DNA from: Rhizoctonia solani
Lineage: Eukaryota; Basidiomycota; Agaricomycetes; Cantharellales; Ceratobasidiaceae
Reading direction: 5' to 3'
Assembly (NCBI RefSeq): GCF_016906535.1
Contig: NC_057375.1
Coordinates: 558,001-622,000, forward strand
DNA length: 64,000 nt
The notes beneath the pieces were generated by a model, which was not told the origin of the DNA, did not search any database, and saw only the letters and a list, made by a program, of their open reading frames with translations. The stretch's first letter is position 1, and each line of letters starts with the position of its first letter. Positions 4,132 to 61,737 of this stretch are shown here, in pieces. A program made the translations under genes and the position numbers.

Positions 4132-4904
4132 GGGCGGAGCAAACCCCACTGATCGAGTAGAAGCTCTTTGTATGTAAAAATCTCAAGTAGCGCACCAGCT
4201 CGTTTGACTATTCATAGTATCGATAGTATCGACTTCATTGAGTCATCTAGAGGTGGTCCAGCTTGATGTGGCCGAACGAAAGTGTGACAGGGCGCTAGAC
4301 AAAGTGCGTTTCCGCGACCCACTTCACAGGTCTACGTGGGGAGAAGTTTAATTCTGTGCCCGTATTTCAAAAAATGGACGACCCTTTACTATGTGCGCCA
4401 ACACAAGCTTCCTTGCTTGTGCGTGGCAGAGATAAAAGCCAGGGCGGCGGAGCTTAATTTTGAAGCGAACATATATCTGAGATGGGATTTCTAGTGCTCA
4501 GCAGGGGTGTGATAAAACGCTTGAGGATTCTGAACTACTGTGCTTCAAAGATGAAATAAACTACAATCAACTTAGTCACGGAAGCTTGATCAATTAAAGC
4601 TTTCGTTCAATTGAATAACCTTATCAAACTGTTGTCTCTCCTTAATCGTTTGTTATATCCCAAAGGACCCGACCGAGTTTTGATAAAGCTGGGTATACAC
4701 GGGGAGCGATCATCTCAATTAAAAAATAGCTCACTTTGAACGACTGAGAACATTCTAGAGCCAGACATCACGGCACAGTAGCCACTTCAACACGTGACTG
4801 TAATGTAACGACCTCCAGGATGATCAGGTGGCTATTGATCGTGCCACGACCCTCAACCCGACCTCTACGTTCCTGGGTGACCTCTCACAAAAACAAGCTT
4901 TACA
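4132..4904. other. intergenic, RdRP upstream region
   Basis: About 770 bp with no convincing exon. It separates the SCOC-like stop codon from the RdRP start and presumably carries the RdRP promoter. Confidence 0.4.
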
Positions 4905-7900
4905 ATGCATACACTATACTTTCATCGCCTTCCTCCCAACGTCGCAAAAAGTGCTTTTTCGGATGCTATTGACAAATTTATTGCCAACGCCCTTAGCGAA
5001 GCCACGGGTGTCTCTCGACCTTCGATTCATATGGATGTTCTCAGCAACCCAACTTTGAATAAGAAGCACTACGGTTATGGATCGCTTCGGTTTACAGACG
5101 AGAAAGCAAAGGAAATGTTCATGGCCAAAGTAAGTCAGGATATCTGTTTAAATAGTTCCTGCGCTAAGATGAGCAAAAGCTCAAAACAGAGCCGATCATG
5201 TTTGGTTCTGAAACTGTGGAATTCTTGCTCGAAAAGCCAGCCAATGTGCCAGAGTCACACTTCGGGCAATCAACTAGTTCTTCATCGGAAGTAGCCTCCA
5301 GGTCTAACGGACGATCACCCCAATCAAGCGGCTCTACGTCTCCCCGGCAAGCCAGTCGGTCTAATGCCTTCTCCAAGACACCAGGTCGGCCTAATCGACA
5401 TGTTATGAACCTGAATCGAGCAAAGCCTCCTCAATTTGAAAAGAGGGAGGTGCGCCCGCCAAATATCAAATACCTTCGCAAACTCCACCACCGGCTTTCG
5501 GTTCTCGGACAGCACTTACGCCTAGAAACACTGGAATTTGGAGTCCTACGCAACTGGAACTTCTCCGTCGAGTACTCGCGCTCCCTTATTGAAGAAACAG
5601 GCTATTTCAAATTTGAAGATGACGAAAAATCAATGCGAATTAGTATTGGAGGCTCACACCACGACTCAACAGAGTCAAGCATCGCTATCGCGATACAGAA
5701 TGTCAACTATGTAGCTCTAGGAACCGACTTCGGAAACCGATATATGTTTCTTTCGCTTTCGCAAAACCCACAGTTTGAGCTTGGTAATATCGCTCGACCG
5801 ATGACCGGGAATGGAAGAGTCGATGCACGACGGTGCCGGGATCGACTGTCTGCTCTTGACGATCGCCATGGACGAGTTGCACCATATACCTCTCGGTGGA
5901 TTAAGCTCACCTTTCACGTGGACAGCCCAGCTCCCGACGCACAGTTGTGCAAGATGGCTGGGCTCGTCGAACCAGCAATAGATCCCCCACTCAGCTTTAG
6001 AAAACTAGACGTCTACTCTCCTCGTAATATCGCCTCTGTCGAAAATTGGTCTCAGGGAGGTTCCTTGGACTGGGAGGTTGCCTTTCAGGTCGAGGCCCTC
6101 TTCCGTAATGGAGTGCTCGTGCCAACAGAGATCATGGCGATCAAACCGATCATAGAAGCGTTGGCCAAACAATCAAAGGGTCAAGCCGCGGATGCACTTC
6201 GAACTTTTAGGGCTGAAATTCAAGGCGCTGGTGCTCGGAGGACTTTCAACGATTTCGAGGACAAGGACGTCGTCAAGGAATTCAGCGATCACATCAGCCG
6301 AAACACCCAGTCGATGCCCTTGGAACGGATTAAAATATCAAATTCCAATTTTATGTGCTACCATTTAAAGATTACCCCCACCGCTGTGCACCTCAACGGT
6401 TTGTCTTTTGCTGCGTGGTTGATATGCAAGCTAACCTGCCACTCAGGGCCCTTGGAAGAACAATCGAACCGGGTCATACGTCGGTACCCCGGATACGAGA
6501 CGCATTTCATAAGGGTCGCTTTCACTGACGAAGCGGACGAAAGAACTCGCTTCGAGTATGAAGTTGACACTTTGGCATTTACCCAAAAGAGAGTTGGCCA
6601 GTTTCTCAAAAACGGTAAGCACGATTTCGGTTTTTCAATCCTTGCTCTCACTCAGGCATCAATCATAGAAATATTGGTTTGTAATCGACGCTATGAACTA
6701 CTCGGATACAGCCAATCTGGTAAGCAGGCTGTGAGCTTATATAAGCGCACAGAACTAACATATTCAAATAACTATAGGTTTCCGTGAAAATGCATGCTTT
6801 TACATTGCACCCTTTGAATGGGAAGGCCAAACTATCAATGGCGAATACATCCGTCAGAGCTTGGGCAATTTTGACCGAGTTATCGATTCCCCATCACGCT
6901 ACGGCGCCCGCATGAGCCAGGCGTTTTCCGCGACCAGTCCATCGGTTGTGCTCAAGGAGTCGGAAATCAAGCAAATTCCAGAACTCCAAGCGTCACGTAA
7001 AAGGATATTTTCGGACGGCTGTGCAACTATTAGTCGGGAGCTCGCAAAGGATGTTTGGGCTAGTTTAGTGGAAAATATGCCTGCTGATCGTCAGGCTTTT
7101 CTCCAAGACGTTCAGCCCCCTTCTGCATTCCAGATTAGAATCGGAGGTCGGTTCCCTTAAGCTCTTTTTTATGGATACATCTAACGCTGCTATCGGGATT
7201 TTTAGGAAGTAAAGGCATGGTTCGACTTGACCCCAAATTGGAGGGTCGAATGTTATGCCTGCGCCCTTCGATGATCAAATTCGATGCTGAGCATGAGCTC
7301 TCTTTGGAAATCGCTCGTGCATTCACGACTTTCAGCCCTTGTTTTCTGAATAGGTATGCATCTTCGTAGATGATCTAAATGCAAAGTTGACAACGGTCAC
7401 TATGTAGGCCGCTCATAGTACTACTCTGGAGCGGTGGCGTGGAAGATGAAGTCTTTGTAAAGCTGATGAAAGATAGCTTGGCTCGGACAACGTCCGACAT
7501 GTCCACCCTAGACGGAGTAGCCCAGCAACTCTATGCAAATCAGCTAGGAGCTCCTTTCCACCTGGCTAGTACATTCCGCCGACTGTCCCGTCTGAATATA
7601 GCGCTCGATCTGCCAGAATTTCGCACCTCAGGTATACATAAACTTTTGAACGCCACTCTCTTCCATATCAAGCGCGATCTCAAACACAAGGCGAGGATAA
7701 AGGTCCCGGATAGCTATACCCTTGTCGGCGTTTGCGACGAAGATGATTACTTACGACCACGTCAAATATACGGTAAGCGATTGCGCATAATGGTTGCTTT
7801 ACCCAGCTGAGATACACTTATTGCTTAAACTCTAGCTTGCATCCAGCATGTCGATCACAATAGCGGAATGGCGGATGTGCGATATCTAGAGGGACGCTAT

Positions 7901-9560
7901 CTAGTCACCCGGAGCCCGGTCATACACCCAGGTGACGCGCAGGTAGTTTGGGCGATCGGAAAACCGCCCACCGATTCGCCCTTTTACGGAGAAGGCAACA
8001 ACTTACCCAATATTGTTGTTTTCTCCACTAGAGGGGTCCGCTCCATTCCTAGTATGTTGGGTGGCGGTGACCTTGGTAAGTACATTTAATATTACTTGAA
8101 CCGACTTCTGAAACCAGTGTATAGATGGAGTATGTTGACTTGGTTTATTCATCTTCACTCACTAACCAGCAATCAGGATCTTTACAATTTGATACCACTA
8201 CCAGAACTTATCCCCCGTTATAGATACAGCCCAGCCAATTACGACAATCCTAACCCAAAGAAGATTGGCCGCCCTAGGTTAGTTTCTAAACTGGACGCGA
8301 CGATATCTTGGTTAATCATGTCCACAGTACCATTAATGATGTCGCCGATTTTATGGTTGAGGTCAGTCGCGTTCCCCCTGACTGATACATGTACTTATGA
8401 TTCCGGGCGTATGTAGTACATCTGTCATGATGCGGTACGTGACTTGTATTCAATTATAATCACGTAGTTATTGATTATAGACCGTGTAGCTTGGCATGAT
8501 TGCCACCAACCACCTCGTTATTGCTTCAACCTCTGAGATGCGTGCTCGGGACGAGAATTGCCTGATTAATGCGGAGTTGCATTCCAAGGTGTGCACCAAA
8601 GAACATACGAAGTCTTTTTTAAAATTGACTGTGCTCCAATCAGGCTGTTGATTTTGTGAAAAATGGCTACTATGTGGCGAACCACGAGATCCGAAAAGCC
8701 AAATATGACAAGCATATCAACGAAGATACTGGAATGGGTCTGAAGCCTGACTGGCAAGCTGGCCATGGACGTGACCCTACTGATGGCCGGTATTACGAAT
8801 GCGACAGGTTCGTATTCACTTCTTAAATGAACCCGTCCCTCTAGCTTACGTATACTGTTGTAGCGTGCTTGGAAAGCTATTTCGTGCAGTTGAGCTACCT
8901 TCAGGAAATCCCGCCCGAGAATCAGAAATCCAACAGCAGGTGCCAAATGTAATACAGAAATGCATCGCCAGCCATGTTGCCAAATACAAGGACGAAATCA
9001 AGACGACTTTTAGTAGCCCTGCCACCATCGCATTTATTCAATCCTTGATACTGCGTTATACATCCGAGCTCAACCATATATGCGTGGCGCATACAATCTC
9101 CAGCGAGTCTGCCGAGCGGGTATCCGAAATCGAGGTCATGCTGGGCACTAATCTCGAAGTAAATTCAAAGTCAGACCTGATCAAACGGATGAAGAGCCTT
9201 ACCCACAACCTCGCCAACACCATGCGACATCAACTCAAAGCAACAGAAGCTGAAACTAATTATGTCTGGCTAGGTCGCGCCTGGAAGGCGTACCTGCTCA
9301 CTAGTAAACTTGGTGACGAGACCTTTGGGACGTTCAGCTTCAGTTGGCTTGCATTGGGTTCGGTTCTCGATGCATTACAAGCTATTGATGAACGATTTAT
9401 GCCTCAGATTAGCCCAATCATCCCTCCTTTTGAATCTACTCCTTCCGGGCGCCCCAAACTGGACGAAGATTACCCTCTCCCAGATTATGACAATTGGAAT
9501 GACTGGGCCGACGAAATTCCGGAAGACGTCGAAGAAAAGACCAAAGGTAAAGGCTCGTAA
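4905..9560 (+). CDS. cellular RNA-dependent RNA polymerase (QDE-1/Rdp1 class)
   Basis: RNA-silencing polymerase that copies aberrant RNA into dsRNA for Dicer. My model has 15 exons: 4905-5129, 5174-6398, 6447-6614, 6669-6719, 6778-7146, 7206-7353, 7408-7772, 7836-8075, 8125-8129, 8177-8277, 8328-8361, 8417-8434, 8490-8588, 8644-8807, 8864-9560. These sum to 3909 nt (1302 residues) without a stop. Family blocks in order are EEQSNRVIRRYPGYETHFIR, FIRVAFTDE, the WSGGVEDE region, VTRSPVIHPGDAQ, the catalytic GGGDLDGDLYNL (Asp929, 931 and 933 in this model) and KAKYDKHINEDTGMG. The catalytic loop is rebuilt only if a 5-nt exon (8125-8129) is included, and a second tiny exon (8417-8434) supplies YICHDA before LGMIATNHLVIA. 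The N-terminal ~75 residues look like a short RRM-like lead. A GT-AG intron from 9546 would replace the last residues (KGKGS) with a Gly/Ser/Arg-rich tail ending at 9832. This is a host gene, not viral. Confidence 0.95.
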
Positions 9561-10454
9561 AGCGGCGCTGGATTGGTTAAATGCTAAATCGGATGTCGAT
9601 AGAAAAAGGCGATGGTCAACTGAATACCGGACGCAACAAAGATCGGGTTCGACAGCAAGGGGGGTGGAATAATGGCAGAAGGAGCCTTGGCGGAAGTAGT
9701 AGCAGCTTTAGCTGCGATAACCATATTGATGTTCAAAACCCAAGTTTCAGTAGTAAAGGGCAAACTACACGCTCGAGTGGGGGTCGTAAGACTGGATATA
9801 GAATTATTGCTACCGGAAACATCTCATTCTGACGCGGTGAGTGATATCATATATTACACTGGTTTCAATTGAGGTATCGAAGCCAGCGTGTTTTAGAAAT
9901 TAGTCCATCGTTATGGTTTGAATGTTGAAGGGCTTGTTTCAATCTTCGTAGAAGTAGCGCTGGGTGACTATCTCATACTTTAGACTTATAATCCAACTGC
10001 TAGTGCCTTGTTAAAATAGACGCATTGATTGTTCTTGTGGAGATTTCGGCGAGCTAACTAAGACTTGTAGCCTAAAACAACATCCTTGTATGAATTAGAC
10101 TCATTCCACTTGTGGCCTTCAAGAGAGCAAATACATCGTAGAAGCATGGGAGGCTATAAAAACATAATGATATTTATAAGCCAAATCTGTTACTTTGTGC
10201 ACAAAACGCAAGACCCCTCTTCCTGACTTTTGGGACTCTTGACAATTTATAGATACGTTCCTCAATTCAAGAACCAAGAAAATTAAAGTTTAGACTACAG
10301 AGCATTACAAAGGCTGTGGTTAGAGATGTTTAAGTGAATGAACCGGCGACCGTTAGATGACCGTACGAACAAGATCCGATAAAACGAAAAATCACGTTGA
10401 TCCAGATTGATATTACCAACCATCGATTTCAGGCTATATATCCCAATTTTAAAA
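9561..10454. other. intergenic, with possible alternative RdRP 3' exon
   Basis: 9602-9832 is open in the RdRP frame if the intron starting at 9546 is used; its product is rich in Gly, Ser, Asn and Arg (RQQGGWNNGRRSLGGSSSS). The remainder to 10454 is AT-rich and shows nothing else. The region is the convergent space between RdRP (+) and the first TmpA-like gene (-). Confidence 0.4.
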
Positions 10455-60044: not shown

Positions 60045-61737
60045 ATGTCGTCGCGCATACCCTATAGCTCCATCGCACTGGATATACCCGAGTTAGTCGC
60101 ACTTATTTGTGAATCTGCCCGCCCTGTAGACCGCGCTCGCCTACTACGTGTTTCAAAGCTTTTTTTCTACTGCACCGCGCCGTTTGTTTGGGAAGAAATA
60201 CGCGGAGTGACAACACTACTGGGGCTTATAGATGGAGTTACTACGAAATGTGAAAAGACAGATTTCGTGTGCTCAAACGTAGTGAGTACAATACTTATAC
60301 GCACGTAACATGCCCTTAAACGACTGCACTCACCAGGTCGTCGAGCTTGATAAACATTTGGACTTTTCCCGCTTTGATCTTTACGCGCCTTTTGTCCAAA
60401 AACTCGAGATTTTCCACCAAAGGACTGAAACCCTCACTCTGAGCTCTTGGGAAGGCCTGGTTGCAAGAGACAGGCCTCTGTTACCCAATCTCACTCGGCT
60501 CAGCTGTCGTGAAGCCCCTGCCAACCAATCACACGACTCAATCATCCAATGGGTGAACACTTTTCTCACCCCCGATCTCGTTGAGCTACGTGTGCCAAAC
60601 CCTAATGGCGATATTTGCGCCATGTTTACGTGGTTAGCGCCTCTCCTTGTGTCGAATATGCTCCAAACTGTTTCGGCCAAATGCCCCAGCCTCAAGACGC
60701 TCGAGGTAGCTCCTGGTACAAGCGGGCGCGACTCGCCTTCCATTGAATTTAATATCCCTCTGGCAATCGGCTTACACGAACATATTGCTCGGTTCGATAG
60801 CCTCAGAACCCTCGTCACCAGTGCAGCTGCCCTCGAACCTGGAATGCTCGTGGCTCTTAGTCAGTTACCCAAGTTGGCAGTGCTCTCCGTCGTATCATCG
60901 CATCAGCACGAACCAATCATGCGACTTATACCACTCGGCCCGAATGCCTTTCCTTCTCTCGAACGCCTCGAACTCCGGAGATTAAGCCTCAATGCTATTA
61001 TTGGCTTATGGTACATCCCGGGCCTCGTTTCGAGATTGTCATCCGCCGTCATTGCACAGCCTATTCTCGACGAGTTCACATCTCGTAATTGGGCCGGCGA
61101 GCTTATATCGCACGTTTGTATCCACAGTCCCACACTCCAAGAGTTCTACCTCGACCCGTACTATTACGTGACTCAAGTCGTCTTTCTGTCCCACGACAAC
61201 CTGAAACTTTTAGAAGAACAGCAGGTTTCGCTGAGAAGCATCACTTTATGTGGCACGCTCGTAGATAGGAATGTGGGGGTTCAAGATCTTGCACGCGCAT
61301 TTCCCAATCTCTCCACCTTGCGATTGCCTTCGTGGAGAGTCACGTGGCAAGATGCTCGTGATCTAGTCGCCCGTTTGCCGAATCTGCACACTTTGAGCGT
61401 GGGGCTGGATACTCTGCAGTCCAATATTCCTCCAATAGGATCAATAAGTGCGAATCGGGATAGGCTATCTTTAGAAATGAGCTGGGATTCTCTCGTCGAG
61501 TTCTCATCTGAAAAGTTGTCGAAACTGGCAGAGTAAGTTGGCCTGATTTAAACCTTTCGTACAACATCCATTGACCCACGATGCCACTTTAGGTTTTTGC
61601 ATGAGACATGGCCGGCTATTAGTTGCGAAGTGATGCCAGGCCTTTCTCATGGCCAACGTACCATGGTGGCTCTCCAGAAGCTTAACGGGGCTATTTCGAG
61701 TCTTAAACGACAAAAAAGGGGTAGTTGTAAGGCATGA
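60045..61737 (+). CDS. F-box protein with LRR-like repeats
   Basis: The N-terminal F-box runs from LDIPELVALICESARPVDRA to LLRVSKLFFYCTAPFVWEEI, the usual P-LL-I...L..V.K...A.P.LW pattern. The rest is a solenoid of leucine-rich-like units (LVELRVPNP, LKTLEVAPGT, LAVLSVVSSHQ, LERLELRRLSL, LSTLRLPSW, LHTLSVGLDTL). Three exons: the first intron is about 60284-60336 and the second about 61532-61593, with stop 61735-61737. F-box proteins recruit targets to SCF ubiquitin ligases through Skp1; the target is unknown. This is one of the large agaricomycete F-box families. Confidence 0.85.

Follow-up and report, generated by a model that had tools for sequence, protein, structure and literature searches.

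Does the gene for a cellular RNA-dependent RNA polymerase (RdRP) at 4905-9560 of the window place the centre of its catalytic motif in an exon of just five nucleotides, and if it does, is that exon a required part of the gene, a regulated switch, or a reading made to fit a broken loop? The window is the whole 64,000-nucleotide stretch of DNA analysed, C6:558001-622000, and the genome searched comprises 40.7 Mb in 16 contigs. The RdRP gene of the window is referred to as the C6 gene. The features discussed below are these:

4905..9560, forward strand: cellular RdRP gene (PF05183), 15 exons, 1300 amino acids plus stop, with the ends of the model predicted
7836..8075, forward strand: exon 8, ending in ...GGGDL and base 1 of the codon for the middle catalytic Asp
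8076..8124, forward strand: intron 8, 49 nt, GTAAGT...TATAG, phase 1 within the middle Asp codon
8125..8129, forward strand: exon 9, the microexon, whose 5 nt (ATGGA) supply bases 2 and 3 of the codon for the middle Asp and the entire Gly codon of DLDGD
8130..8176, forward strand: intron 9, 47 nt, GTATGT...CAATCAG, phase 0, with a branch candidate CTAAC at 8162-8166
8177..8277, forward strand: exon 10, opening with the third catalytic Asp (GAT) and continuing DLYNL...
8417..8434, forward strand: exon 12, a second short exon of 18 nt, also 18 nt in the sister gene C3 (below)

An RdRP gene and its five-nucleotide exon

The model of the C6 gene, obtained with our own splice parser on 4601-9561 with its end set at the stop codon, comprises 15 exons that total 3903 nt with the stop counted. 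The initial annotation had arrived at the same number of exons and likewise at a length divisible by three, but its total, 3909 nt, differs from ours. The Pfam RdRP model matches the translation at residues 473-1078 with an E-value of 1.9e-161, over positions 1-582 of the 582 in the profile, and the domain scores 539.1 bits against a curated cut-off of 23.8, which makes the protein a full-length member of PF05183; a Pfam scan with a 66-residue fragment alone returned no match. Elsewhere in the window, a 408-residue open frame at 60310-61536 has a leucine-rich-repeat match that is sub-threshold (19.4 bits, cut-off 40).

The solved structures nearest to the C6 protein are 7w84 and 7w82, with an E-value of 1.2e-63, followed by chains that bear the name RNA-dependent RNA polymerase 2, with E-values of about 1e-57, while QDE-1-type chains (5fsw, which is named QDE-1, 2j7n and 7y7p) reach only about 0.003. 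We take 7w84 to be a plant enzyme and 2j7n to be QDE-1. The alignment to 7w84, a solved RdRP, spans the catalytic loop, and GGDLDGDL occurs in both sequences. Because the C6 protein is closer by E-value to plant RDRs than to QDE-1, the gene would be of the RDR alpha rather than the gamma (QDE-1) type, as judged by pairwise comparison only and with clade names as used in passages of PMC8713982. The C6 gene is a cellular RNA-silencing RdRP.

Exon 8 reads ...GGTGACCTTG up to 8075, and exon 10 starts GATCTTTAC from 8177. The introns on both sides of the microexon are canonical GT-AG introns, and only with the microexon included does the C6 gene encode the complete Asp triad of DxDGD, in the form DLDGD. 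The 5-nt exon is confirmed as a predicted feature: its boundaries at 8125-8129, and those of introns 8076-8124 and 8130-8176, are exactly the ones first proposed, and joining exons 8, 9 and 10 restores GGDLDGDLYNL. The exon had also been said to encode the second catalytic Asp and the Gly. It does hold the whole Gly codon, but of the Asp codon only bases 2 and 3; base 1, G at 8075, lies in the upstream exon. By motif alignment, the microexon thus supplies two-thirds of the codon equivalent to Asp832 and all of the codon equivalent to Gly833 of Arabidopsis RDR2, whose loop, 830-DLDGD-834, is described in passages of PMC8713982 as losing activity when DGD is replaced by alanines, and for which G833E is a loss-of-function mutant. 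Two more short exons follow soon 3' of the microexon, at 8328-8361 (34 nt) and 8417-8434 (18 nt), and both have equal lengths in C3.

Alternative parses and the products of missplicing

For the C6 loop, 124 GT-AG parses are stop-free and consistent in frame, and a single one of them, the microexon parse, gives DLDGD; it also has the top summed splice score. Summed scores carry no per-intron charge, and two-intron parses are thereby favoured, but when the parser's charge of 2 per intron is applied the microexon parse still comes first, at 8.4 versus 4.3 for the best listed one-intron parse. In a control in which the outer splice sites were fixed and the sequence inside was shuffled, any solution of the form AG-ATGGN-GT arose in 5 of 20000 shuffles, and one of consensus quality in 0 of 20000. 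Among the 22 GTs in 7836-8277, the donor at 8076 scores highest and that at 8130 ties for second place. The acceptor at 8124 ranks just seventh of 22 by score, and the putative branch site of intron 8, CTGAA at 8108-8112, is weak.

The parser, which combines codon usage with hand-set consensus splice weights and makes no use of homology, picked the 5-nt exon both in the gene region and in a wide region, where its model had 29 exons and ran on into the flanks. Its choice nonetheless counts for little, because other exons of 1-5 nt turned up in its models of the RdRP loci C3, C1, C4b, C8 and C15 (below), and these we took as artefacts.

Skipping the microexon shifts the frame at the active site, as the initial annotation stated, and leads to a stop after 943 codons; retention of either intron leads to a stop after 932. 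One further parse of the C6 gene removes 8076-8117 but leaves intron 9 in place. It preserves an open frame, and its full-length product would lack the middle Asp and the Gly, conceivably with a dominant-negative or structural role. The acceptor at 8117 scores lower than that at 8124, if by a small gap (1.8 versus 2.3), intron 9 would have to be kept despite its joint second-best donor, and the same search finds no such isoform in C3. We consider production of this inactive form very improbable.

The initial annotation had further held that a single intron from 8076 to 8176 would break the frame and destroy the loop, and excision of that segment as a whole does both. For the same reason the region was rejected as a stwintron. 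Fungal stwintrons, as presented in the abstracts of PMC8469720 and PMC6616335, also involve neighbouring short introns and successive splicing reactions, but there a splice element of one intron is split by a second intron, whereas the C6 gene has two complete introns with five coding bases between them.

The sister gene C3 and the other RdRP loci

A search of the whole genome gave 27 exon-level Pfam matches, which we read as seven RdRP loci: the C6 gene, C3, two on C4 (C4a and C4b), C1, C8 and C15. At the DNA level, the segment 7836-8277 matched only the window itself and C3 (71%) within its own genome. Scans for relatives elsewhere matched 2 stretches in viral_contigs and 27 in genome_contigs, none of them confirmed as relatives. 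The microexon is found in one of the six other RdRP loci, C3, and is thus conserved in a diverged relative, the comparison being one between paralogs of a single genome.

The C3 protein is 78% identical to the C6 protein in the core. Its microexon, ATGGG at L011:3794-3798, has flanking introns at the same positions as in the C6 gene: one of 51 nt, which follows ...GACCTTG, and one of 46 nt, after which comes GACCTATAC. This parse is the sole one of 185 to give DLDGD and is also top-scoring. The two microexons agree at four of five bases, and the one difference, in the Gly codon, is silent. From exon 3 to exon 15, each of the 12 introns occupies the same alignment column and has the same phase in the two genes, and the first two introns match by exon order. 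Over ungapped columns, the 14 introns are 53-71% identical between the C6 gene and C3; those flanking the microexon, at 62% and 61%, show no special conservation. For exons 8-14, with 179 of 219 residues identical, dN is 0.118 and dS is 3.53 (saturated), a ratio of 0.03; dS was not computable for exons 3-7, and exons 1-2 were excluded from dating because of a frame break in exon 2 of C3. Since silent sites are saturated and the arrangement is still shared, the microexon has long persisted in both genes.

The C3 frame break is a single change of reading frame in the exon matching exon 2 of the C6 gene, at L011:1750-2075, and may reflect recent decay or an assembly error. C3 is the weaker as a witness because it may be decaying or misassembled, though dN/dS in its core is low. 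For C3, homology to the C6 gene was used to fix where exon 6 ends and to discard splits that the parser had placed within exons 2, 7 and 8.

These comparisons bear on the proposal, made in the initial annotation, that inclusion of the exon acts as an on/off switch, such that controlled skipping or retention would cause frameshift and transcript decay and turn the polymerase off. A length of 5 nt, which is not a multiple of three, and the stops after 943 and 932 codons would suit a switch of this kind. Passages of PMC11121469 report a glucose-dependent microexon switch in Xlr2 of Trichoderma virens, where, as here, a fungal microexon codes for part of a functional domain; that microexon has 20 nt, whereas the C6 microexon has 5 nt and is known from sequence alone. 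Every outcome except inclusion merely truncates the protein, however, as for any frame-breaking exon, and because truncation on skipping or retention follows from where the exon is placed, it is no evidence of control. In both paralogs, moreover, the splice sites are still usable and the motif is intact although silent sites have diverged to saturation, and the introns that flank the exon are conserved no better than the 14 introns at large. Nothing in the sequence suggests regulated inclusion; the claim is unsupported, and we regard a switch as improbable.

A catalytic-loop intron is present in seven of seven loci, but two such introns occur only in the C6 gene and C3. In C1 the only loop intron splits the middle Asp codon in phase 1 and coincides exactly with the upstream intron of the C6 gene and C3. 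C4a, C4b, C8 and C15 have one loop intron apiece, which separates bases 2 and 3 of the Gly codon (phase 2) and lies one base ahead of the phase 0 downstream intron of the C6 gene and C3; the difference in phase would be explained by a slide of one base or by an independent gain. Sharing of intron positions was evaluated for four gene pairs under random placement, with p values unadjusted: the C6 gene and C1, with 8 and 4 introns over 245 codons, share one position, the upstream loop intron (p 0.043); C4a and C8 share one, in the Gly codon (p 0.026); the C6 gene and C4a share one, away from the loop (p 0.024); and the C6 gene and C8 have no position in common. Shared descent of intron positions is suggestive only. 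In a tree of six genes, from which C15 was left out because the parser skipped its loop, the C6 gene and C3 group with the C4 pair, C1 and C8 are on long branches, and one fork is open.

The idea that introns 8 and 9 are copies of each other was not supported, their similarity ranking 48 of 91 intron pairs. On C4 (L009:1-9901), the two RdRP paralogs are in tandem and 65% identical in the core, each with one Gly-codon loop intron. In C15 (L013:3047-3608) about 280 bases are duplicated in tandem at 99.3% identity; the duplication begins inside the loop intron and represents a recent event or an assembly artefact.

The C3 frame break and the C15 duplication do suggest that members of this family may decay, and one could suppose that the C6 gene too is decaying, that mutation has disrupted its loop, and that the 5-nt exon is a parse chosen to rescue the motif. 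Against this, the C6 model is open over 1300 codons with a Pfam match to the full profile, core dN/dS versus C3 is as low as 0.03, and shuffled controls seldom give a comparable fit (the 5 of 20000 noted above). Decay of the C6 gene is, in our estimation, highly improbable.

Known small exons and the likeliest reading

Exons of 1-5 nt are already known, and one of them, a single nucleotide long, lies in a conserved motif of a fungal P450. The description of the C6 exon as among the smallest known is fair for its size, yet exons of 1 nt have been published: passages of PMC4674806 describe a constitutive 1-nt exon in Arabidopsis, and those of PMC12940212 one in Fusarium CYP621A. The Fusarium exon resembles that of the C6 gene in being a tiny fungal exon that lies in a short conserved motif (PKG) and is required for correct assembly of the gene. 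It differs in having 1 nt, in belonging to a P450, and in resting, per the abstract, on transcripts from the sequence read archive, where the 5-nt exon in the RdRP Asp loop is a reading of genomic DNA. In another basidiomycete, Phanerochaete chrysosporium, P450 genes also have frequent introns of 45-55 bp and tiny exons, the shortest of 6 bp (PMC1184071), but these belong to a different gene family, and the available passages contain nothing on the RdRP loop. Plant microexons of 1-15 nt, as portrayed in passages of PMC8831610, are likewise conserved and often unannotated, with strong signals in flanking introns and likely consecutive removal of those introns, and include a rice exon of 5 nt validated by RT-PCR; that work concerns plants, and the phrase "RNA-dependent RNA polymerase" occurs 0 times in its main text.

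Among the literature matches listed, which cover few subscription papers, there is no microexon in an RdRP catalytic loop, and the sole listed match with both RdRP and microexon concerns a plant virus genome. The passages of PMC4014442, PMC3990503 and PMC5639578 hold nothing on the question. What seems new, among the matches listed, is the location in the catalytic Asp loop of an RdRP, together with the series of paralogs having one intron, the other, or both.

The likeliest reading of the C6 exon is that of a constitutively required microexon, which would be included in every productive transcript. Introns 8 and 9 are short (49 and 47 nt) and each has its own donor and acceptor, so that recognition of each by intron definition is possible. 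Two spliceosomes at once would not have room on 5 nt, so the introns would probably be removed in succession; consecutive removal of introns around microexons is indicated by the plant data in passages of PMC8831610. As to origin, two nearby intron positions would have come to coexist in the C6 gene and C3. Each other paralog has one of the two positions (the downstream one being off by one base), and the microexon is therefore probably what remains between both. Taken whole, this reading, in which an RDR alpha RdRP has a required 5-nt exon, not a switch, between two coexisting intron positions whose introns are removed successively, is one we hold to be very probable.

A further step, that the ancestral RdRP of the lineage had both loop introns, that C1 later lost the downstream and C4 the upstream one, and that the C6 gene and C3 keep the microexon as a point at which failure of splicing silences the amplifier of RNA silencing, is speculative, and we are inclined to doubt it.

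According to the abstract of PMC8831610, genome annotation often overlooks exons of such a size. Were the microexon of the C6 gene missed, the RdRP gene would appear catalytically dead or truncated, and surveys of active RdRPs that count DxDGD in the predicted proteins of such fungi could miscount. The family itself, with the upstream intron alone, the downstream-type intron alone, or both, offers a natural series for studying the origin of a microexon inside an active site.
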